Assembly (NCBI GenBank): GCA_951802425.1
Contig: OX637800.1
Coordinates: forward strand, 620,001-684,000
Direction of reading: 5' to 3'
Source of the DNA: Clavaria fumosa
Taxonomy: Eukaryota > Basidiomycota > Agaricomycetes > Agaricales > Clavariaceae
Length of the DNA: 64,000 nucleotides
The notes under the pieces were generated by a model that saw only the letters and a program-made list of their open reading frames with translations, was not told the origin of the DNA and ran no database searches. Both the position numbers and the translations under genes were made by a program. Within the stretch, counting starts at the first letter, position 1. The number at the start of each line of letters is the position of its first letter. Shown here in pieces: positions 23,651-38,516 of the stretch.

Positions 23651-26115
23651 AACTGTGCTAGTGGCTCCCTTATGGCGGCAATGCCGGGAATCGCTGGAAC
23701 GTGAGGTGGGACTTGCCCCACCTAGCCAGGCATTCACAGGGGTAGCCCCAGAGGCCGGATGGACAGCGCCTGCCGACCACAAGGAAGGGTGGCGAAGGGA
23801 GAACTGCGCGGACAGTTCTCAAACCCCTGGCAAGCCAGGAGTGGAGGGTGGCGGTCCCCGAGAAACAGTGGGGCCAGAACCATGGCCTATCCCGTGCTAC
23901 CCACAGTTGGGTCAGCGAGAGCCAATGGGCTGGATGGAACCGCCCCAGAAGGAGCAGGAGATTACTCAGGAAGTATCCCTGAGTTCTACAAACTACCAGA
24001 GTGATGTATTACATCACTATCTCATGATGATATGAGACCAAACCTCACTATTGCCTGAGGCAATAGCTGAGATTAAGGGGATCAAGATTGACCCCCCTGA
24101 GCTTTATGACAGACGAGATGACCTCGTCATCTGGGAAAGGTGGCTCAATGGCCTCCTTAATTATTTCTACTTTTATAGAGTAGTTGGCCTGCAGTTGGAA
24201 CACCAATGTGTTATGCTAGCGGGGTCGTGCTTAAGCAGAATAGCCACTACTTGGTACAGTTGCAGACAAACAAACTTGGTTAAGTTGCTCCTGGCCCTAC
24301 AAAAAATTTGGCGCAATTCTGAGGCCAGATTCGAACTCGGAATGGCTGAAATAGCCAAAATACATGTTCATTTGAATTTCCCACGACTTTTAGGGTATGG
24401 CCAAATTTTTGAGCCAAAATTCCACCACTATATAGGGTTCATTATCGACTCCAGAGCCATCATGGCACCCTGGGACACCTGCCGATGCTGTTTCTGCTTT
24501 CTAACTGCCCATGCTGCTGCCTTCCCTGTGAGTCCTAGCTGGTATGCACTGAGAAATCGCCACAACTTGTTAATGAACTGTTGAAGGACATCAACCGGAC
24601 ATGCATCAAGCTATTCGATCGCCACTTGTTTGGCATGTGCGAAGGACGTTTTCGGGACTTCTCGGTAACAGTATTTGATCCATCCCCAATACTGTGGGCC
24701 ATCAGTTACATGATTTCAAACTGTCCATCACAACATGCGGCACCCAGTCCTTATCATCTCCATCTCTGTCTGAGTCTCCTTCTGTCGTGTTTTCTGAGCT
24801 CCCATGGAGTTTTTCAAAGTAATCGAACACATTTTTCAAGCCAGTTGTGATTCTGGAGCGTTTTTGAGGTCGTCCAGCCCCCATAGGTCTGAGGATATTC
24901 AGAGTTTAAATATTTGTAATCTGCATTTTTCAATGACTTGGAGTCAAAATTCTGTGCAGCTCTCAGCAGATTCAGATTCAGCTTGGTGAGAGGAGCATTT
25001 CTATATATATTTCATATTTTTAGCTAATTTTTATGGGTACAGCCAAATTTTTGGAGGTTGAAAAGTCAAATTGCTAATTTGAGAAATTGGCTTGTAGAAA
25101 TCAATGAAGCAGGTCCTTAGCAGTGTATTTCAACACAAGAACAGGCAATATGATGATTGCAGCTGCTACGAAAATTCAACCAAGGTGAGCATCATTGTTT
25201 GACCAAGTTTGTTTGTCCACAACTGTATACCCAAGAAGTAACAGGTCTATCCTGTGCTCCTCGAAGGTCCACCTTCAAGGAATTGATAACTGCTATGTTT
25301 AAGCAGTTCCTGACTGAGGTAACAGCCCAGAAGGCAGTGGATGCCTTCTATCAGTGAAGTTTACAAAGGTGAAGGGCACCTTGGGATTCTGGAACAAACT
25401 GGTCCAGGTGGCAGAGAGAATGCTCACCCTGCCTGATGCCAGTACAATGAAAAGGCAGTTCCTTAACAGACTGCCTAATGAGATGGTGGAGGCCATTTTC
25501 AAAACTTGCACGATTAGCATCAAGTTATCCTCGGTTGAGGATATTATTGATGCTAGTCACCAAGTGGAAGCAACCCTCCACTACCTCCAGTAGCAGAGGG
25601 CAGTGCCTTTGTCAGGGAACCAAGCAGGTCCCAAAGGAAACCCACCCACAGGTAGAGTACCTGTGGGGCAGAGGTTTGTGAGACTGGACTGCAGGCCAGG
25701 GGAACCTGTTCCCCTGTGGATCAACCGTGCACAAGACGAGCATGCCCCAGCTGGAAGGAGTAAACCCTGGCTAGAACCACCTAAGGTGGTGCCCAAGATT
25801 GGGGTATGAGGCAGGGAGGAGCAGAAAGCTCCTCTAACATGCTATGTCTGCAGGAAAGCAGGGCACTATGCAAATGTGTGCCCTCAGTCACAGCAAAAGC
25901 CAGAGGCTTTTAAGGGAAATGTAAGGAACTATGCCTTACAGGGGATCCAGGTGAGACGGAGCCCAAGGAACCGCAGGAGACACCTGCAGTTGAAAGCGAG
26001 GAGCCAGAGGGTGAAACCCTACTGGAGGAAGTCGCAGAAGGTGGCTACGCTGGTCGCAGGGACCAGTATGATTCAGACGAGCTCTTTCTCCTTGAAGAGC
26101 TTAAGGAGGAGACGG
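23651..26115 (+). pseudogene. Element A gag, split by a Tc1/mariner-type insertion
   Basis: Readable parts: IKGIKIDPPELYDRRDDLVI and WERWLNGLLNYFYFYRVVG before the insertion at 24257-25225. After it the frame resumes as TQEVTGL, then MFKQFLTEVTAQKAVDAFYQ, KVKGTLGFWNKLVQVAERML and LPNEMVEAIFKT, and a zinc knuckle CYVCRKAGHYANVC (CX2CX4HX4C, about 25840-25881). In-frame stops include TAG at 25591 and TGA at 25807. The sequence before 24050 is CpG-rich but not clearly gag; it may be 5' leader. Confidence 0.75.
24257..25225. mobile_element. Tc1/mariner-type non-autonomous element (969 bp)
   Basis: Ends are inverted repeats starting CAGTTG: CAGTTGCAGACAAACAAACT at the left and, read from the right, CAGTTGTGGACAAACAAACT. 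The next bases (TGGT) also match. A TA dinucleotide flanks each side (24255-24256 and 25226-25227), the target duplication of this superfamily. Excising the element with one TA restores the gag frame across the join. No transposase is visible; the longest frame that looks self-contained is 60 codons on the minus strand (24884-24702). Confidence 0.85.
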
Positions 26116-27021
26116 TGTAAGGATGATATACGGTTTAGACAAGGAAACATCACAGATACTGACTATCTGGATACTTTGGCATCAAAGGCAACAGCGACCG
26201 ATAATGATCCGATACTGTCCGATAACGTCTGGGACATCCAATAAACATCCAATATCGGACTCTCCGGTCTCCAGTCCCCCGTGATGATCACAGCCCGCAG
26301 GTCATACACACCACCCACACCTCTCTATTTCATCACTCCAGCATGGTCAGCACTCGACATACTCACTATTCCATTACCCTTCCTTTATTTCATATACCAT
26401 GCTGTAAATTTCATATTGTGATCCCTTTCAACCATCCGATCATTTAAATGTTTCAAACCCTTTGCAGTGCCTTGCCCATTGTTCCTAATACCCCTTTGCT
26501 GTACCAGCCACACTTTCCTTCATTTTACGAGCAGTCCGGACATATGCTAGTTATCAGACATTTCATCCCTCCAAACTGCATGACTCACTTATGAGTTATA
26601 GCCCTTATATGACCTTGTACACAATACCGCATTGCCTTCTGTAGCTTCCAGAGATTTCCGTAGGATCGGATTTGCTGTACTTAGAAAATTGTACATAAGT
26701 ATGTACCAGACTCTATGGAAATCCAGCTTTTGGAATGCCCACATCATGCTCTGATCTTTAGCAAGCTCACCCTTCGTTGTACCTATTGATCCGCTGGCCT
26801 TCGTTGTCGCCGGCCCCTCGAACTTTCGATCCGAACATCGGACTCTATCGGATCCGATACCGGATACTCCGGACAACATATATTTTTACTCTCTGAACTT
26901 TTTGCACTCAACCTCCACATCCTCCAAGGTTCTGTTTAGTGTTTCCGTCCTGTAACAAGACCCCCTGAAGAACCCGGCCACGAACATCTATTTGCAGCCA
27001 ACACCTGTACAGCCTACTACA
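26116..27021 (-). repeat. Solo LTR of the element B family, inverted relative to element A
   Basis: Starts TGTAAGGATGATATACGGTT and ends CCTACTACA. It is a diverged copy of the element B LTR (reverse complement of 27514-28420), 906 bp. It is flanked by ACGG (26112-26115) and ATGG (27022-27025), a 4-bp target duplication differing only at a CpG cytosine. It was left by recombination between the LTRs of an earlier insertion, and it splits the gag-protease region of element A. Confidence 0.88.
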
Positions 27022-27513
27022 ATGGAAAGTGACCAGGTCACTGGAATCTGGGAAGTGGAAGAGGACAATGTCCCCTATGTGACGGAAGTACATGTTGGCC
27101 ATGTCGATGACAGGCCATTCTGGGCGCATGTCCAGAAAGAACAGATGGGGTCATGTCCGGTAGTAACAAAGGAGGCAAGGCAATGTCTCACAGCCTATAT
27201 CACTGTGAATGGTGTAAAAGCGTACATGCTTTTCGATTTGGGAAGTACCCCGGACCTGATGAGCCCGGATTTTGCCCAGGTGATGAAGGTACCAACCTTC
27301 CAACTGGATAATCCAGTTCCTATTCAACTTGGCTGTATCGGCAGCCAATCAACAATCACATGCGGATGCTGCATAGCATTGGACTTGGGAGGAATACTGG
27401 TGGAAGACCAGTATTTTGATATAGCGAACATAGATCACTATGATATCATAGTAGGAATGGCATTCATGTATGACCGCCATGTGATACTGGATGTGCACCA
27501 ACATGCAATCTGG
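27022..27513 (+). pseudogene. Element A aspartic protease region
   Basis: Reads SDQVTGIWEVEEDNVPYVTE, VTKEARQCLTAYITVNGVKA and then YMLFDLGSTPDLMSPDFAQV, where FDLGST stands at the aspartyl protease active site (DSGS or DTGS usual). IDHYDIIVGMAFMYDRHVIL and DVHQHAIW follow, before element B interrupts the frame at 27514. The frame resumes at 37401 as IRIGKGKGKTLHAM. Leu in place of Ser/Thr in the active-site triplet is unusual and may be inactivating. Confidence 0.7.
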
Positions 27514-28420
27514 TGTAGTAGGCTGTACAGGTGTTGGCTGCAAATAGATGTTCGCGGCCGGGTTCTTCAGGGGGTCTTATTACACAACAGGTACACTAGA
27601 CAGAACCTTGGAGGATGTGGAGGTTGAGTGCAAAAGGTTCAGAGAGTGAAAATATACATTGTCCGGAGTATCCGGTATTGGATCCGATAGAGTCCGATGT
27701 TCGGATTGAAGGTTCGAGGGGCTGGCGACGATGAAGGCCAGCAGATCAATAGGTACGACGAAAGGTGAGCTTGCTAAAAATCACAGCACGATGTGGGCGT
27801 TCAAAAAGCTGGATTTCCGTATAGTCCGAAGTGTGCTTAAGTACAGTTCTGTAAGTACAGCAAATTGGAATGTACGGAAATGTCCGGAAAACATATGGAA
27901 CAGCGCCATGTCGCGTGAAGGGTTATATGGAGGAGTTATATCACAAGGGAATTGAGTAGCTCGGAGGAATGAAATGTCCAATGAGTAGCACATGTCCGGA
28001 CCGTTTGTAAACTGAAGGAAAGTGGGGCTGGTACAGCAAAGGGGTATTAGGAACAATGGGCAAAGTACTGCAAAGGGTTTGAAACGTTCAAATGATTGAA
28101 TGGTTGAAAGGGATCACAATATGAAATTTACAGCATGTTATATGAAATAAAGGAATGGGAATGGAATAGTGAGTATGTCGAGCACTGACCATGCTGGAGT
28201 GATGAAATAGAAAGGCGTGGGTGGTGTGTGAGACCTGCGGGCTGTGATCTTCACGGGGAGTCGGAGACCGGAGAGTCCGATGTTGGATAAGTATCGGTCG
28301 TTATCGGACAGTGTCGGATTGTTATCGGATCGTATTGGACGCGATTGCTTTGGATCCCAAAATATCCGGATGATCGGTATCTGTCATGTTTCTATGTTTA
28401 AACCGCATATTATCCTTACA
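27514..28420 (-). repeat. Element B LTR (3' LTR in element sense)
   Basis: 907 bp, pairs with 36494-37400. It contains clusters of TCCGG/TCGGA words near both ends (27660-27720 and 28255-28390), and TA-rich DNA between. The purine-rich stretch GGGAGAA (minus strand, just outside at 28421-28427) is a candidate polypurine tract. Confidence 0.93.
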
Positions 28421-28582
28421 TTCTCCCGGGGGCTGAAAATGCAACCACCCTCGGTTGCGACCAAACAAGGCCAAATAATTGTTTGTTGATCATGAAGTAT
28501 GTGTTGTGTGGGTGCACATAGGTCCAAACACGCACTTGTGTCTTCTCCAATAACAGCAACGCATCAACCATCCAGAAAAAAA

Positions 28583-30148
28583 ATGGAAAACTTCGACGCT
28601 CTCGTTTTCCGGAACATGGTCCAGGCGATGACGGAGGCGCGGACCATGGCGCCGGGTGAGGAATTACCGGAGCGGGGGCAGGACAGTGAATACGCGGAGT
28701 GGGTGCAGATGTATGGGGGTGATGCGGTGCATGGTGTTTCTTTCTTTTCTTTTTCACTTTGCACTGACAAGTTTTCAGGATGATTTCCTTGTGGGCTACG
28801 TTGCCGCAATCGACGATGATGTGGAGGTGAACGAAGGACTCGTCCTCGTCGCGCGAAGGCTCAAAAAGTGGCGAAGGCTCCGCGGGGACGAATGGACCGC
28901 TGAGCGGATGAGGAAACAGGAGGAGGCCGAAGCCAAACAGGAACGTGCAGACGAGGAGAGGGCGGCCGCCGAGAGGGCCGCAGCGGAGGAGAGGCGGACG
29001 GAGGCGACGAGAGCTGCCGAGAAGAGGGCGTGCCTTGCTCGGGCGCGCCTCATTGTGATCAGTGACAGCGACGATGACGGTGGGGCGGCGGCGGCAACAG
29101 CAACAACAATGACGGGGGCGGCGGAGTCTGGCGCAACGGCAGCGGCGATGACGACAGTATCGTCAGACGCCGCGGAGCTGCGTGGAGACGAGGTTGCGAC
29201 TGCGGAGGAGGAGACAGGAAAGGTATGGGTGGCAGCGGCGGAAGATCGGGACGGTCATCAGACCGTGTGGGGAACTGACGGGGTGACGCCCGTCGGTGTT
29301 ATCGAAGCGGTGGCCGTGGGGGGGCAGCAGACGGTGGAGGTGCCCCTCGCGTTGGAGGCTCGGGTGGGCGGGCGGATGATGGCGACTCCGGTGTGGGTGG
29401 AGATGGCGAGGCGGAAGGCGGCGGAGCGGGGGCGAGGGAGGAGGAGCGGAGCGGGGGCGGACATAAAGTCCCGGGCTGCGCGGCAGCCTGGAGATAAGGT
29501 GAGTGATCGATTAGAATGTGTGAGGGTTTTAGATATCTGATCTGATGAGTAGGAACACGATCTGGTTTGTGAGGAGTGCGCCCGGAAGCGGCGGGCATGT
29601 TACGGAGTGGAGGGGGTAGCGTGCCAGTGGTGCCAGACCTACAAGGTATCGTGTAGTCTGTCGGCTGTACAAGGTAAGTGGTATTCTTTTTTATTTCCAT
29701 GATGAGACAAATGATAGGTGAGTTTTTAGGGATGAAGTCGGAGAGGGCGCCGGTGTCCGGAACGGGAGGTAAGTCAAGAAAGTATCAGGTCCACTTTTGC
29801 TGATGTATTGGAACAGGTCCGAAGGTGGCGGAAGCGACCAGGAGCAAAAGACCGAGGCGAGGTGCGACGCGGGCACCGGTTCGCGAGGAGACGACACCGG
29901 AGGAGGAGGAGGAGGAGGATGAAATTGAGGATGACAGCATGGAGCTGGTGGAGGAGCCGTCAGCGAAGAGGAGGAAGGCGGAGGCGGGTCCTAGCCGGAA
30001 GGGTAAGGAGCGGGAGGCGGCTGCGGGATCATCAGTCAGAGAGGCGCTGGAGCAGGCGCTCCAGATGATGGAGAGGGGGGCCGACCAGGTGAAGGCCGGA
30101 GCCGAGTTGCTCCAGATGCTTCTCCTTGGTGAGCACCTTACTGTATAA
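28583..30148 (+). CDS. Antisense spliced gene inside element B, Zn2Cys6-type zinc cluster protein
   Basis: Five exons with good GT-AG sites and matching phase: 28583-28726, 28779-29498, 29553-29673, 29730-29768 and 29817-30148, giving 451 residues. Introns are 48-56 nt, like those of the host genes. I do not recognise the whole protein. Visible parts: an N-terminal block, a long Arg/Glu/Ala-rich probable coiled coil (about residues 70-125), an acidic IVISDSDDD, and an Ala/Gly-rich middle. At residues 294-322 comes CEECARKRRAC...CQWCQTYKVSC, spacing CX2CX6CX7CX2CX6C. That fits the fungal Gal4-type binuclear cluster (CX2CX6CX5-12CX2CX6-8C), with basic residues between Cys 2 and 3. After it come a KRPRR basic patch, an acidic run, AKRRK, and a C-terminal amphipathic helix. 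A nuclear DNA-binding role is inference. It is transcribed towards the element's integrase, starting 163 bp from the LTR. Confidence 0.75.
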
Positions 30149-30379
30149 GTATTGTATTTTTATATATGTTTTTCTTTTTCCCATTTGCAATGTTATGTCG
30201 TGTCAGAAAAGTGAGTGAGGGATGTGAGAATGTAAGAACATGGTTAAAGAAACGTCTGGTATAAAGTTTTGGACTTGTCCGAAATTTCGATTTTTTTTTT
30301 TTTTTTTTTTTTTGGGCGTTCAAATCAAAAAAAACAATGTAAATTGTAGGGAACTGAGAGATATGATGGAGGAAAGTGC
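30149..30379. terminator. Convergent 3' region with T-run
   Basis: Short spacer between the stop of the plus-strand gene and the integrase stop on the minus strand. It holds an uninterrupted run of about 24 T at 30291-30314 and several ATATAT words. Both transcripts should end here; no exact polyadenylation signal can be assigned. Confidence 0.4.
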
Positions 30380-32809
30380 TTAATGGCAAGGCCGAAGGTT
30401 CTGGGTTGCTCCGGAGCATTGCAGACGAGTTTCCATAGTGTAGTCGTCGGCAGCTTCATTATCAGATTCATCGGATAGTTCGGCGGCTTGGCTTTCCTCA
30501 TCCTCAGTGTCGGTAAAGATATGTGACGCCTCGTTTATTTGATTTGGAGAGATGTCCTCATTTATCTCCGTTGTTTGGTCAATGATAGATGTCACCGGAA
30601 TCGATGTTTGTGACCGCGGATAGTAGGGAATGATGCAGAAAGCAGCATAGTGGATTTTTGAGACGGTGCCGTCGAGTTCCGAGAGGATATATGCGCCGTA
30701 TTGAGTTCGGCGGATGACGATCATCGGTCCGAAGAATCGTGGTTTTGTTTTCCAATTTAATTCCATTTCAACGGCCGAATTGCAGATCAGTACCAACGAT
30801 CCGGGTTGGAAGTCGTAGTCAATAATAGACTTGCGGTGTGCGTCGATAAATTGCTTGACAGATTGTTTGTGGGCAGCGAGCACTTTATCGGCGATTGTTG
30901 CTAGATCTTTTTCTCGTTTTTGCAGTTGGCGGGCACAAAGGGCTATCAGTTCTGGAGTGGTCATCGGGGCATCGGCGGTCGGAATTAGATATGTTGCTTT
31001 GGATATGTCGAAAGGGAAAAGCGGTTCGATGCCGTGTGCGATGTAAAACGGAGAGTGACCAGTGGATCGTTGGATTGTGGTTCGTTCTGCCCAAATGACT
31101 GAGGGTAAAACGTCTGGCCATTTCGATTCGTCTCCGTCTGCTGCTTTGATTAACGACTCGCGGACCAACCAATGGGCATGTTCGATGACACCATTAGCGC
31201 GGGAATTATAACCGGAAATATGGATGTGATGGATTCCATACCGCTTCTTGAGGAAATCGAGAGCTTTGATAAATGGGGCACCGTTATCCGTAATGATCTC
31301 TTCTACTGCTCCCCATTGGCACAGTATGTCTTCAAATATGAAGGTTCCGAGAAGTCGGGCAGTCTCATTTCGTAGTGGTCTTGCTTCCGGATATGCAGAT
31401 AACAAGCATCGGGCATGGACAAGAAGTCAGAAACCGCGGGTTCTGGGTAGGAACATGGTATCTATATGTGCTTGACGGAAAAGACCGGCCGGTGTGGCGA
31501 CCGTCGGTGGAATAAAAATCTTCCGGATTTGCTGAGTCTGGCATTGGTGACAAGTTCGGACAAACCATTTTACGTCTTGATCCAACACCGGCCACCAGAA
31601 CCGATTTAGAATACGTGTTCGGATAACGTAAACGCCTTTGTGGCCAAGTGAATCGTGTGCCTCTGTGATAATTGCGAGCCGTTTGTGGTCCGGAGGCACT
31701 ACCTGGTGGCATCCGTTAGGTCGGCGACGCCATAGCTTGTCATCTAGAATGAAGAACTGGGATGCGGAGCGGACTAATCGTCGGAACTGGTTTGTGTCGA
31801 TGCCGGAAGGACGGATCAGGTTTCGAAGGAAAGATTCGATTTTGCAGATCTGTTCTTCCCTTTTCTTTGCTGCGTCGGGTCGCGGTATAAGGATGGTGGA
31901 GGATTCATCCGGAGTCGGTGAATCATTGGATGGTACCGTCGAATTGAGTAGCATCGATCCTGTGTAAGCTTTGAGGCGAGAATGGGCGATGCCGGCAAGT
32001 GGCGTCTCGGATGGGTAGGAAGCGTCCAGTGCTCGATTCATGTGTTCCATGGCGAATACATAGCTCCGATCGATCCAGTCTTCGTGATCTTCGGACTCGG
32101 TGTCTTCTTCACCATCTGCGGCACGTCGGCATGATAGTCCGTCGGCTCCAGTGTGTTTATCTGCGGGAATATGAACAAGGTCGAAATCGAAGAGTAGTAT
32201 ACCGGCAATCCATCGATTCATGGCAGCGTTTGGTTGAACGTCCGGATTGCTTAGCATACCCTTAATGAACTTTGCGTCCATTTCAACGGTGAATTTCGGA
32301 AGGCCGATAAGGTAAATCCGGTACAACCGAAGTGCACGGAAGAGTCCGTATAATTCGATTTTTGCTTGAGAGTATCGGGCCTCGCGTTCGTTCCAGGTAA
32401 TCGAGCTGAATCTGGATGGGTATCGGATTCCATCTTGTCCAATTTGAAATAGCGCGAAGCCGACGGCGATGTTGGACGAGTCGACGGCCATAATTACGGG
32501 CCGTCCAGAGCAGTAATCGATCGGTTGAATGGCGGATGAGTTGACTATTGTGTGTTTAAGTCGGTCCATCGAATTTTGCTCTTCTTCTTCGAACCTGAAT
32601 GGGACGTCCTTACGAGTTAGGCTGACAAGTGGTCGGGCAAGTACGGCGTAGTTTTTGATGAATATCTGGAGCAGTCCGCAGATGCCTAAAAATGATCGTA
32701 CATCTGTGAGTGTTTCGCACGGAGGCCAGTCTTGAATGCGCTGAACATTAGAAGCGTCCAGAACTCGCCCTTCATATGTGCATCGGTAATGATTGTTTTG
32801 GGGGTGCAA
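30380..32809 (-). pseudogene. Element B RNase H and integrase
   Basis: One frame from 32809 to 30380, broken only by a TGA at 31427. It starts with the reverse transcriptase thumb (CTYEGRVLDASNVQRIQDWP, VRSFLGICGLLQIFIKNYA). RNase H follows with IMAVDSSNIAVGFALFQIG and SQAKIELYGLFRALRLYRIY. The integrase zinc domain has HDSLGHKGVYVI and CHQCQ. The core has QAHIDTMFLP (Asp), EIITDNGAPF (Asp) and GVIEHAHW (Glu). Conserved stretches such as RYGIHHIHISGYNSRANGVI and STGHSPFYIAHGIEPLFPFD are typical of basidiomycete gypsy. The tail is acidic, without a chromodomain. Catalytic residues are intact apart from the stop. Confidence 0.88.
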
Positions 32810-34110
32810 ATTGTCGTTTTCTTGCCATTAAAGGTTCCTCCAACTATTTTGACTCGTTGGAGCACCCGGTTGACGTTATTCAAATGCTCCCAAACAAACT
32901 GCCGTATTTGCGGATTCTCCTGGATCGTCTCGTAAGTGCCGTCCGGAAGCTCGTATCGGGTTTCCGGGCCCTTAATCGCTACATCGTCTACGAATGGGAT
33001 GGTTATGTGCGGAATTTTGTCTTGTAGTATATGCGTGACGTCTCCATGCATAATCTGCGTCGCATTGGTGTATCCCATCGGGACGCAAGTGAGCCGTTTG
33101 GCTCCGAGAGGGGTTTGAAATGTGGTAAGGTCTTGACTTCGCTCGTCGAGAGACCGTTGATCAAAGGAGATGAATAAGTCGAGAGTTCCGTAGCATCTGC
33201 ATCTGGCGAATGATTCCGCAAAAACTTCCATTATCGGGGGAACCGCAGAGTCGCCGATGGTGACTTTGTTTAATGGCTGGAGGTTATGGACAAGTCGGAG
33301 AGACTTTCCGTCCTTCTTTAACACGCAAAACCACTGGGACCGATAGGAGGAGTTGGACTCTTCATAGACTCCGGCCACTATCTTGTCTCGGATAACCTTC
33401 AGGACTTCGTCATAGATGCCGGGAGGAATCGGTATATTTTTGAAGATCCAAGGGATATGTTCGACTGTCGGGATGATAATGGGATCGAAGTATTTTGCGT
33501 TGAATTGTCCTTTCTCGGTCTCCGTCCAAGCGAAGGCATCCTCCTGGGCTTTAATCAGATAGTGAACGAGTTTTTCTTCGTCCGGCTATAAAAATCCGGT
33601 GGGGTTTGCATTATGCGCATCTTTCCGGTCTTGAGTATATCGGAGACCAGGGGTGAAATCGGGTGGGTGTGTTGGAAGTGTCGGTATATTGGCTAGGGGG
33701 TCTGGATGCCGGCGTTGGACAATCCGGAATTCTTCGGGTACCGTTGCTTTGATCGGATTGATGCGGTTCGCTACCTTCTTATATTTCTTTCCTAGGTAAA
33801 CTGGCAAAACGGTGTCCGTAGACGGGAAATTCATTTCGGAGGTATTGTTGTACAGAGGGTATGCGATATTCGGATGCGTCGGTTCACATTCGATATCGAC
33901 CGGGGAATCAACGGAATCAAGAGAAATGTCCGAGAAACTGATACTGGGAATGGGATCGGGAGGTGCTAAATTTACAAGGGAAGACGATGAGAAATTTTGA
34001 ACAGAAGTGGAAAAGATGGCTGGAGTCTCGTATTTGGGTATAGGTTCTGTGTCCGCATCGACCGGAGGTGAGTCCGTAGATTTGCGGATAATTGAGGCTC
34101 CAGCCATCAA
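32686..34110 (-). pseudogene. Element B reverse transcriptase (5' part of pol)
   Basis: Read from 34110 in the frame shifted by -1 relative to gag-protease. A spacer rich in Ser/Pro is followed by a TAG at 33586. Then come FAWTETEKGQFNAKYFDP, SSYRSQWFCVLKKDGKSLRL, VHNLQPLNKVTIGDSAVPP and CYGTLDLFISFDQRSLDE (first catalytic Asp), FQTPLGAKRLTCVPMGYTNA and the catalytic box PFVDDVAIKGP (about 32983-32994). Near 32785 the frame is lost by a one-base indel and continues in the frame that starts at 32809. Confidence 0.87.
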
Positions 34111-36104
34111 AAATCCGGATGCGGTTTCTTGTTATTCAATGTTTTGCGGACCGGGATTCGCTCCTTTGTTGGCACAATGATTCGTTCTCCTGTGTTCGGA
34201 TCATTTAGAATGAGATCCTGGGCTCCGTGGGGATGGTCAATTGTCTGAGAGCCGGTTAGCATAAAAAATGGTCGTCCGACAAGAACCTCGCAGGGTAGCG
34301 TGTCTGCCCTTTGCATTTGAACATGGAACGTGCACGGACCGATCTGTAAAGGGAAATTTTTGATGAGTCCGAGCGTCGGAGCGATGGTGCCATGGGATGA
34401 TTCCATATGGATTACTCGTTTGGAGTGCAACGGATTGCCGAGCTTTTCCCAAACATTTTGCCTCATTGCTACAATAGAGCTACCCTGGTCAAGAAGACAT
34501 TCCGCTGCGATCCGGCCGTCTAGAATGCCCTCTACGATGCGGAGTGGAGCAGCATCGACTGCGACGACGAGATCGGAGGTATCCGGGGCCGTAATGTTCG
34601 TGTAAAGTGTGTCCTGTACGACGGAAGCAGTGACCGGGACGCAGCGGGTGGTGACCATATCCTTCATCTTTTTGCGGACGTCTCCGGAAATGGCGAGTAA
34701 TTCACGGGGTGTCACATGGACCGGAATGTCGAGTGCACGATCGAAGACTTGTTGAACTGTTACCGGATTTTCTATCGGAGCTTGGTAATGATACTGGACG
34801 TCGGATTGTTTGATTCTTTCCGGCTTTGATGGGCGCGTGACCGGAGGCGAGGTAATGACAACGGCGGGCGGAGGAGGTAACCTAGATGGCTGTGGATCGT
34901 TATTTCAGGGTGCGGGCGCTTTCCTTTTGCTCTTGTCTATTTTCTTTGCCACATCGTTTGCAAAGGTGCGAGCCATATTTTCCAGGGCAATCCTCTCGCC
35001 ATCTTCTTCTTCCGAATCGACTTCCGTATCCGGGGGATTTACGAATGATCCGGTCGGCTGTGCTTCAAATACCGCGGTAGTCGCCGGTTGCATGTTCTGG
35101 GATTGGTAAGTAGCGTAGTACTTGTCAAAGCGCTCGGATAAGTTGTTTCCTACAATAGTGCCTGGCAAGTATCATCCGGAGGGAAGGCAAATTCTGCCTT
35201 CGGTGTTCCGTATACATTTACCGGACTTGATGTATTCGAGGGTCTTTGGACAGGCACTAACAAAATGACCTGGTTCCGAACAGAAATTACACGTCCGGCC
35301 TGCTGGGGAATTCGTCGTCCGAGGAGCAGAACATTTTGCCTGTTCGAGAGACTGGGCTGATAAAATTGATTCGAGGCGAGCCATTGTGGAGGCGAATGTT
35401 GCCAAGGCTGCGGACATATCAAATTCTTCCTTCTTGATCACTGGTTTTGTTTCTCTCCCGGGGGTTGCGGATGCGAAGCGGATAGGTCCGGAGAATTGAT
35501 CGGTTGTTACGGAGTGCGGGGACGTTGAGGAGAGTAGAAATTCGGCTGCGGCGTGAACCTCATTCATCAGGTATGGGTCCTCCAGATGGTGATTAGGTAG
35601 TATAATCACAAGCCGGCTCTCGATCCGGCACCTAGTATGATCCCCAAATCCGAGGATGTAAAGCCGGTTTCTGTCATTTGTGGACATACGTTGGGAGGTG
35701 ATCAAGTGCGAAGTGATCCGGAGAAAGTCCCGGTAATATTCTCTGTGTTCTGCGCACGTGTAAACCCCTTTTTGGGCCGAGTCTGATATGAAACGGTCCA
35801 AATCGGCGACAGAAAACAAACGACCGCCATCGGAGCCTGGATAAAGGCGTTGGACAGCCGCTTTGAAGGTTTCCCAGGTCCATACCGGGTCCGGGGCTGG
35901 TGTGAGGGTCTCCCAGAGGAGACATGTGTTCGTGTCGAGGTAGTGCTTTGCGTACCGAATTAAATCGGCTTCCGGAACGTCTGGATTAATGCCAGTGAGT
36001 ACAATGTCAATGTCCTCGAAATACCGGTTGAGATGGGTTGGTACTCCGTCAAAGGCGGGGGCCCTGTGAGCGCCACGGAGCGGATATCTCGGTTGGTTGG
36101 CCAT
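34107..36104 (-). pseudogene. Element B gag and aspartic protease, one frame with two TGA stops
   Basis: From ATG 36104: MANQPRYPLRGAHRAPAFDG, capsid-like segments (HLNRYFEDIDIVLTG, TWETFKAAVQRLYPGSDGG, EHREYYRDFLRITSHLI) and a zinc knuckle CNFCSEPGHFVSAC. A TGA at 35172 is followed, same frame, by ERFDKYYATYQSQNM and an acidic patch; a second TGA at 34905 follows. The protease has ECLLDQGSSIVAM (active-site Asp in DQGS), then CEVLVGRPFFMLTGSQ. The frame ends at a TGA (34107) directly behind a run of five T; pol continues in the -1 frame. Both internal TGAs could be CGA originally. Confidence 0.85.
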
Positions 36105-36471
36105 TGGTATTGCTGCGTGAGGAAGTTCTTGTACGGCGTCGAGAGGATTCTGTGGTTTGTCAGTTGGAAATTGTAAGGTGTTCAGTTCGAGGGGTAGTGG
36201 TGTGAGCGGTGAGTGTGGTTCTTCGAAGATCTGTGGTAATGAGGTAACCGGGGTGGCGAAGCTTGTGTGGGAGTAAACAATGGATGAAATACTGGGAATG
36301 TCCGATGGAAGAAAGTGGGAAGTTTCAATTACTTCTCCAGGAGGTTCGGAGTGCGGTGGTTCTGTGATTCGATCCGGGTTTCGACTTCTCAGACGTTCGG
36401 AGCGTTGATGCTGGAAAGCGGAGGAGCCTCTGGGAATCCTTGAAGGCTGTAGTGAAGACGTTGTTACGACC
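36105..36471 (-). other. Element B untranslated leader
   Basis: About 370 bp between primer-binding site and gag ATG. GTGT/GGTG-rich on the plus strand, no clear frame on the minus strand. It should hold packaging signals; nothing specific is visible. Confidence 0.4.
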
Positions 36472-36489
36472 CCCTCGCGGTGGGCTCCA
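36472..36489 (-). other. Candidate primer-binding site of element B
   Basis: Four bases inside the 5' LTR end (element sense) the minus strand reads TGGAGCCCACCGCGAGGG. It begins with the TGG that pairs with a tRNA CCA end. I cannot name the tRNA from memory. Confidence 0.5.
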
Positions 36490-36493
36490 AAAT

Positions 36494-37400
36494 TGTAGTA
36501 GGCTGTACAGGTGTTGGCTGCAAATAGATGTTCGCAGCCGGGTTCTTCAGGGGGTCTTATTACACAACAGGTACACTAGACAGAACCTTGGAGGATGTGG
36601 AGGTTGAGTGCAAAAGGTTCAGAGAGTGAAAATATATGTTGTCCGGAGTATCCGGTATCGGATCCGATAGAGTCCGAAGTTTGGATCGAAGGTTCGAGGG
36701 GCCGGCGACAACGAAGGCCAGCGGATCAATAGGTACGACGAAAGGTGAGCTTGCTAAAAATTACAGCACAATGTGGGGGTTCAAAAAGCTGGATTTCCGT
36801 ATAGTCCGAAGTGTGCTTAAGTACAGTTCTGTAAGTACAGCAAATTGGAATGTACGGAAATGTCCGGAAAACATATGGAACAGCGCCATGTCGCGTGAAG
36901 GGTTATATGGAGGAGTTATATCACAAGGGAATTGAGTAGCTCGGAGGAATGAAATGTCCGATGAGTAGCACATGTCCGGACCGTTCGTAAACTGAAGGAA
37001 AGTGGGGCTGGTACAGCAAAGGGGTATTAGGAACAATGGGCAAAGTACTGCAAAGGGTTTGAAACGTTCAAATGATTGAATGGTTGAAAGGGATCACAAT
37101 ATGAAATTTACAGCATGTTATATGAAATAAAGGAATGGGAATGGAATAGTGAGTATGTCGAGCGCTGACCATGCTGGAGTGATGAAATAGAAAGGCGTGG
37201 GCGGTGTGTGAGACCTGCGGGCTGTGATCTTCACAGGGAGTCGGAGACTGGAGAGTCCGATGTCGGATACATATCGGTCATTATCGGACGGTGTCGGATT
37301 GTTATCGGATCGTATCGGACGCGATTGCTTTGGATCCCGAAATATCTGGATGATCGGTATCTGTCATGTTTCTATGTTTAAACCGCATATTATCCTTACA
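36494..37400 (-). repeat. Element B LTR (5' LTR in element sense)
   Basis: 907 bp, same ends as 27514-28420. On the plus strand a cluster of CGG/CCG words lies at 36641-36700 (GTCCGGAGTATCCGGTATCG and following) and another at 37235-37380, where TCGGA or TCCGA recurs about eight times. More CpGs are kept here than in the partner LTR. Confidence 0.93.
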
Positions 37401-38516
37401 CCGGATTGGCAAAGGAAAGGGGAAAACCCTTCACGCAATGTTGCCCAGTGAGGAGATGGAAGCGTTAAGCCTCCATATATCGGCTAAGAATGCGCCGAGG
37501 AAGGAAGCTCGAAAGAGCTGACTACACTCGGGCCCCCGGGATAAGGGTGAGCCCTGGAAGGGGGGAGAGGCTAATGCCTCTGTAAAGATAGATGACACCT
37601 ACCTTGAAGGCAGGCATGAGTACTGGTTTAACCAGTACACCAAGCTCTTTGGGGGAGTTCCCCCCAGACCACCACCGTTTTGGGTGATAAACCACCACAT
37701 ACCCTTAATAGACGAAAAGAAAGTCTATAATTATTACCTGCCTTGGTGTGCTGAGGCATTCAAGGAACAATTCCTTCAGAAAGTGAACTGTTATATTACT
37801 AACAGTTGGTGGGAAGCAGGAGTGGCATCACAAGCAGCTCCTATGCTATGCATACCAAAAACAGCCAGAACCCGCTGCTATGGACAGTGGTAGACTGCCG
37901 GAAATGGAATGCGAATACCATACAGGATATTACCCCATTGCCCAATCAGGATCAGATCAGGCAGGACATGGCTAGAGCCGCATATAGGTCAAAAATTGAC
38001 CTATCGGATGCATATGAACAAGTATGCATAGAGCCTGAGGACATGTGGAAGATGGTGTTCGTGACTGTCTTGGGCACCATATTCTCACAGGTGATGCAGA
38101 TAGGGGATTGTAATGTCCCTGCTACCTTCCAGTGCCTGATGATGCACATATTTCGTCATCAGTTGGGAAAGTATGTGCATGTGTACTTAGACAATGTATT
38201 TGTCTTCTCCAAGACCTTGGAGGACCACAACTGTCACTTAAAAACAGTCTTTGAGACCCTCAAAGGCACGAGCCTTTTCTTGAGCAAGAAGAAGTGCTCA
38301 CTATACACGAAGAGTGTAGACTGCTTAGGGCATATTATAGATGCCCAAGGAATTCACATCACAGTGGATAAAATGGAAAAAATCTGTAACTGGAAAACAC
38401 TGACAAGTGTTAACAAGGTACAGAGGTTCCTCAGATTAGTACAGTACATCAGACAGTTCATGCCTGATCTGTCCACATACACTGGCCCTTTAGCCAGTTT
38501 ATGTAGTGAAATGTGA
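37401..38516 (+). pseudogene. Element A reverse transcriptase, catalytic box changed to YLDN
   Basis: Continues the pol frame after element B. A frameshift near 37860 joins two frames: ...GVASQAAPMLCIPK, then LLWTVVDCRKWNANTIQDIT, PLPNQDQIRQDMARAAYRSK, IDLSDAYEQVCIEPED (first catalytic Asp) and GTIFSQVMQIGDCNVPATFQ. The catalytic box reads VYLDNVFVFSKT (TAC TTA GAC AAT at 38184-38195) where YxDD is required. The thumb has CLGHIIDAQGIHI and VQRFLRLVQYIRQF. It ends at a TGA (38514). The enzyme would be inactive. Confidence 0.87.

Follow-up and report, generated by a model that had tools for sequence, protein, structure and literature searches.

An intron-bearing antisense gene with a Gal4-like cysteine cluster in an LTR retrotransposon of Clavaria fumosa

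The element and its antisense gene

We analyzed a 64,000-nucleotide stretch of the Clavaria fumosa genome (contig OX637800.1, positions 620,001 to 684,000; hereafter, the window) that contains a whole long terminal repeat (LTR) retrotransposon carrying an intron-bearing gene antisense to its gag-pol. The gene (28583-30148, plus strand) lies between the integrase end and the 3' LTR and comprises five exons with in-frame joins, yielding 451 codons plus a stop; its four introns, all GT..AG, are 52, 54, 56 and 48 nt long with phases 0, 0, 1 and 1. Coordinates, lengths and phases were re-derived and agreed with the first-pass annotation of the window, as did the cysteine spacing CX2CX6CX7CX2CX6C at residues 294-322. 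An alternative upstream start at 28499 was rejected, its frame not being conserved: in an alignment of 40 copies including the window (37 of them anchored), the codons 5' of the ATG at 28583 were not conserved in frame, and this ATG is therefore the better start. The features are listed in Table 1.

Table 1. Positions of the element, its coding regions and the antisense gene within the window
Feature	Position	Strand	Remarks
Whole LTR retrotransposon, 9.9 kb	27514..37400	gag-pol on -	two 907-bp LTRs, gag zinc knuckle, reverse transcriptase (RT), RNase H, integrase zinc-binding domain
Target site duplication, left copy CTGG	27510..27513	.	NCGN 4-bp duplications at other copies
3' LTR (element orientation)	27514..28420	-	907 bp
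Second cluster of CCGG/CCGA/TCGG sites	27663..27704	.	in LTR
Array of four TCGG, 10-11 bp apart	28294..28328	.	3' LTR, 255-289 bp upstream of antisense ATG
Short leader, LTR to antisense ATG	28421..28582	+	matched in 20/20 copies read with wide flanks, 82-96% identity
Exon 1	28583..28726	+	
Exon 2	28779..29498	+	predicted long helix, then disorder
Exon 3	29553..29673	+	all six cysteines of Gal4-like cluster
Exon 4	29730..29768	+	
Exon 5	29817..30148	+	stretches of basic and of acidic residues; C-terminal segment conserved
Integrase core and C-terminus	30380..31405	-	assigned by position; no Pfam match above cut-off in this piece
RNase H and integrase zinc-binding domain	31427..32809	-	both above Pfam cut-offs
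Reverse transcriptase piece	32686..33378	-	Pfam 29.5 bits vs cut-off 29.6
gag with CCHC zinc knuckle	35172..36104	-	zinc knuckle below Pfam cut-off
Candidate primer binding site TGGAGCCCACCGCGAGGGGG	36470..36489	-	4 nt inside 5' LTR
5' LTR (element orientation)	36494..37400	-	907 bp
Target site duplication, right copy CCGG	37401..37404	.	

The two LTRs have TG..CA ends and are 96.9% identical, with 22 of their 28 differences in CpG context. The earlier description of two 907-bp LTRs flanked by one target duplication thus holds for the LTRs; the duplication is 4 bp long with one mismatch, a C/T difference within a CpG. Judged by its sequence, the element is of the fungal Ty3/gypsy type, having the order RT-RNase H-integrase, a gag knuckle, TG..CA LTRs and a short duplication. 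The RT score in a longer copy (L010) was 23.8 bits, also under the cut-off, and two long, incomplete open reading frames (ORFs) gave no Pfam chromodomain match after the integrase at E<=0.1.

Distribution and conservation of the gene

We searched the genome (48.8 Mb, 17 contigs) and obtained at least 43 matches with the gene DNA and at least 175 with the protein, which merged into 94 gene places among the matches listed. All 20 copies read with wide flanks showed the order LTR, leader, gene and integrase with the gene antisense, and two or three of these had inserted sequence between the parts or a partial LTR match; in L024 and L026-L028, the leader match spans only 126 of 162 nt. An exact outer LTR start lies upstream on the same strand at 72 of the 94 listed gene places (median distance, 1,077 bp). 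A place was counted as tied to the element when it had an exact LTR start, an integrase among the matches listed or a copy read directly; this applied to 89 of the 94, all of those tested. Conversely, 70 of 92 integrase places among the matches listed had a gene match at the expected spot; when 8 of the remaining 22 were fetched, the gene was present in 6 and absent in 2 (L063 and L067), which had no window match at all in the 2.2 kb beside the integrase. Copies of the gene between integrase and 3' LTR are thus recurrent, as anticipated if it were a true element gene. In ENA and JGI contigs, exon 2 had six relatives with 41-61% identity in the best local alignment, whose hosts are possibly the same or near species.

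The gene also retains its structure. All four introns were GT..AG in 37 of the 40 aligned copies (156 of 160 intron slots), and the start ATG was present in 36; in the four others (L012, L016, L031 and L032), AAG stands in place of ATG where a run of A ends. An open frame of at least 425 codons was found in 15 copies including the window (two without the ATG and one reading past the usual stop), with earlier stops or shifts in the other 25. Among these 15 long-frame copies, the mean divergence at codon positions 1, 2 and 3 was 0.119, 0.130 and 0.265, and that of introns was 0.276; across all 40 copies, the values were 0.140, 0.149, 0.279 and 0.290, respectively. Since introns drift about as much as third positions, the exon borders and frame appear to be right. 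The median ratio of nonsynonymous to synonymous substitutions (dN/dS) was 0.27 (range, 0.22-0.52; 99 of 105 pairs of long-frame copies with dS >0.05). The usable pol copies, just 4 close and decayed ones (6 pairs), had a median of 0.49 at dS 0.08 and are too few to serve as a yardstick. The substitution patterns of the antisense gene indicate that the antisense protein is under purifying selection, which, together with the shared place and orientation and the conserved introns, supports the earlier proposal that the gene belongs to the mobile unit.

Cysteine cluster and LTR sites

The cysteine pattern of exon 3 fits the spacing of the Zn2Cys6 consensus (CX2CX6CX5-12CX2CX6-8C) and includes a basic loop. 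This spacing was kept in 46 of the 47 exon-3 copies found, the exception being L048, where the stretch from cysteine 3 to cysteine 4 is three residues shorter; exon 3 was not found in copy L042. A predicted model of the domain weakly matched Zn2Cys6 structures, and the domain resembles a cluster of the Gal4 type that has diverged. In Gal4, the cluster lies near the N-terminus, whereas here it is mid-protein. The model of exon 2 (mean predicted local distance difference test score, 51.9) contains a helix at residues 2-96, with low confidence beyond residue 94. Searches for homologs added little: residues 270-345 gave 22 candidates, none at E<=1; 509 stretches in viral contigs fitted the pattern, of which 0 were confirmed; and NCBIfam gave no match to the antisense protein. 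The lone match of exon 3 in a PDB sequence search (E 0.49, a RING/CHY protein) was taken as chance.

The most enriched 5-mer in the LTRs was CCGGA/TCCGG, followed by ACAGC and then by TCCGA/TCGGA. The first and third together occur 20 times per window LTR, compared with about 3.5 expected and a maximum of 10 in 56 tiles outside the element; counts were 7-22 in 12 other LTRs, the lowest being from a partial LTR match (L020), and 18 in a subfamily about 82% alike. The TCGG array of the 3' LTR is held by the 5' LTR as well (starting at about 37274), and in other subfamilies it is one unit longer or shorter. Same-strand site pairs at 10-11 bp, roughly one turn of the helix, numbered 4 and 6 in the two window LTRs, whereas 2,000 shuffles of each LTR gave no more than 2 and 169 overlapping background tiles no more than 1.

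Integration at CpG

In the window subfamily, 127 exact LTR starts comprised 43 internal (preceded by AAT) and 84 outer ones. At positions -3 and -2 of the outer starts, we found CG in 44, CA or TG in 40 and TA in none (84/84); CA and TG are the products of CpG deamination. Of 13 copies fetched, nine could be read on both sides; among these and the window, 9 of 10 had CG on at least one side, the tenth (L019) having TG on both. In a young subfamily, 84 exact starts comprised 42 internal and 42 outer, and all 42 outer starts had CG at -3 and -2. Reading of 20 young insertions on both sides gave 17 exact 4-bp duplications, all NCGN, although two of these share flanking sequence and are possibly not independent; of the other three, two were off by one base and one was unmatched. 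CpG makes up 3.5% of window dinucleotides. Furthermore, CCG or CGG occurred in 14 of the 17 exact duplications, compared with 47% of window CpGs (p ~0.003; p 0.005 after dropping one repeated site). We found no report of an LTR element with strict CpG targeting in the open-licence papers surveyed, and the present element is a fungal example of near-absolute CpG target choice.

Discussion

The element bears on the question of what antisense accessory genes do for LTR retrotransposons. We consider, with a probability of about 0.6, that the gene is a long-standing, spliced antisense accessory gene whose product is a nuclear DNA-binding regulator acting on the element's own LTRs. The antisense mRNA would start at a promoter in or next to the 3' LTR and would then be spliced. 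The protein, probably dimeric and of the Zn2Cys6 kind, would enter the nucleus and bind the TCGG(A) arrays in the LTRs. Through the 3' LTR array it would tune its own gene, and through the 5' LTR array, which lies near the outer end (U3 by position) upstream of gag-pol, it would tune the genomic RNA; a single protein could serve both because the array sits in both LTRs. It might act as an activator or as an anti-silencer at CpG-bearing sites. Because the genomic RNA runs the opposite way, the introns would remain unremoved and be passed to new copies, which shows a way for an intron-bearing gene to persist in a retroelement. Several observations weigh against this regulatory role: PF00172 (Zn_clus) scored 11.7-16.6 bits against a gathering cut-off of 21, the pentamers were picked after the fact, and enrichment of CGG/CCG itself extends to pol and gag, whose tiles contain the same pentamers. 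The earlier suggestion of a transcription factor therefore remains an inference: the spacing fits and the model is weakly like Zn2Cys6, but the Pfam score stays under the cut-off, and DNA binding is putative. A more specific idea, which we regard as tentative and rather doubtful, is that the Gal4-like regulator binds the CpG-bearing LTR array and so lets the element escape silencing by CpG methylation, with integration of this element also confined to CpG; if true, one dinucleotide would connect targeting, silencing and self-activation.

Other explanations fit parts of the data. The protein might help integration, guiding the pre-integration complex through CGG/CCG at the target and thereby explaining the CpG targeting. 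CGG is a classic target of Zn2Cys6 domains, and the invariant CG at young outer edges and the excess of CCG/CGG in the duplications agree with such guidance. However, tethered elements usually insert scattered around the bound site, and here the CpG occupies the exact centre of the 4-bp duplication, a position that implicates the integrase itself. Moreover, Drosophila errantiviruses (ZAM and kin) have palindromic target motifs with a CG core, e.g. CGCG, although their LTR ends are AGT/AnT rather than TG/CA as here (PMC5408687). We consider guidance by the antisense protein unlikely, and to about the same degree a role as a chaperone, nuclear import factor or particle protein, in which a basic, coiled-coil protein transports RNA or complexes and zinc serves only for folding. 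The basic stretches of exon 5 and the predicted long helix of exon 2 agree with this, and such accessory roles have been suggested for plant antisense ORFs (aORFs) in PMC7264820; the Gal4-like spacing with its basic loop and the CGG-type array in the LTR argue against it.

It is still less probable that the antisense transcript works as RNA, through double-strand silencing or interference, with the protein incidental. Roles of this sort have been put forward for the antisense transcripts of other elements (PMC7264820), but constraint at the protein level and the conserved splice sites and cysteines oppose it, and a dN/dS of 0.27 largely refutes it. Least credible is a recently captured host gene or passenger, an option raised in the first-pass annotation. 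Sixteen PF00172 matches elsewhere in the genome could be domain donors; nevertheless, the gene occurs in several lineages with integrases just 75-77% alike, the protein is about 53% alike in copy L065, and the element ties described above leave capture without support; we rejected it as the main explanation.

Antisense accessory genes of LTR retrotransposons are already known in plants and in Botrytis Boty, and we regard the antisense zinc-cluster gene as a variant within this known kind. We found no report of a spliced antisense zinc-cluster gene in a fungal gypsy element among the open-licence papers surveyed, subscription journals being outside the scope. The closest description concerns brtn of the Boty-like gypsy elements of Botrytis cinerea (Zhao 2011, as cited in PMC7264820, PMC8365987, PMC4227169 and PMC5987419), which likewise lies antisense within a gypsy element of a fungus and is grouped by PMC7264820 with ORFs between pol and the 3' LTR. 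Boty pol is described as having a chromodomain, whereas none was matched in the two long, incomplete ORFs here; BRTN was compared by description. The plant aORF-3R of Grande, RIRE2 and Retand resembles the present gene in place, orientation, retention in most copies and a suspected nuclear or DNA-binding role. The Retand ORFs carry TRP28 (PF04195), which gave no match at E<=1 in the antisense protein, and the two plant papers searched do not contain the word intron, compared with four introns and a Gal4-like cluster here.

Further parallels are HBZ of human T-cell leukemia virus type 1, a bZIP protein, and VANC of the Arabidopsis VANDAL elements, which are DNA transposons. HBZ likewise comes from an antisense gene and acts as a nuclear regulator of its retroelement (PMC11963269), with its antisense promoter in the 3' LTR (PMC7264820); the antisense protein here had no bZIP Pfam match at E<=1. 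According to PMC5735166, VANC recognizes short motifs of its own element that are often tandemly repeated, and the number of repeats differs from copy to copy; by analogy, VANC may be a model for an element protein that reads tandem motif arrays; methylation loss was demonstrated for VANC, whereas here it is only a possibility. Here one element combines an antisense gene encoding a candidate DNA-binding domain with an array of candidate binding sites, so the role becomes directly testable, and the many similar recent copies in the family aid such testing.

Three observations concern the history of the family. Exon 2 of L027 and L028 is 93-95% identical to that of L024 and L026, while the integrases are only 75-77% identical, which shows that the gene segment passed from one element lineage to another by recombination. 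A recent burst is suggested by a 1,287-codon open frame at 33 of the 92 listed integrase places, and the exon-3 zinc sequence is letter-identical in six copies (the second copy of L025, L033, L034, L036, L047 and L064). Immediately upstream of the element, the window contains a further LTR of this family in inverted orientation (about 26100-27021; LTR start at 27021, minus strand).
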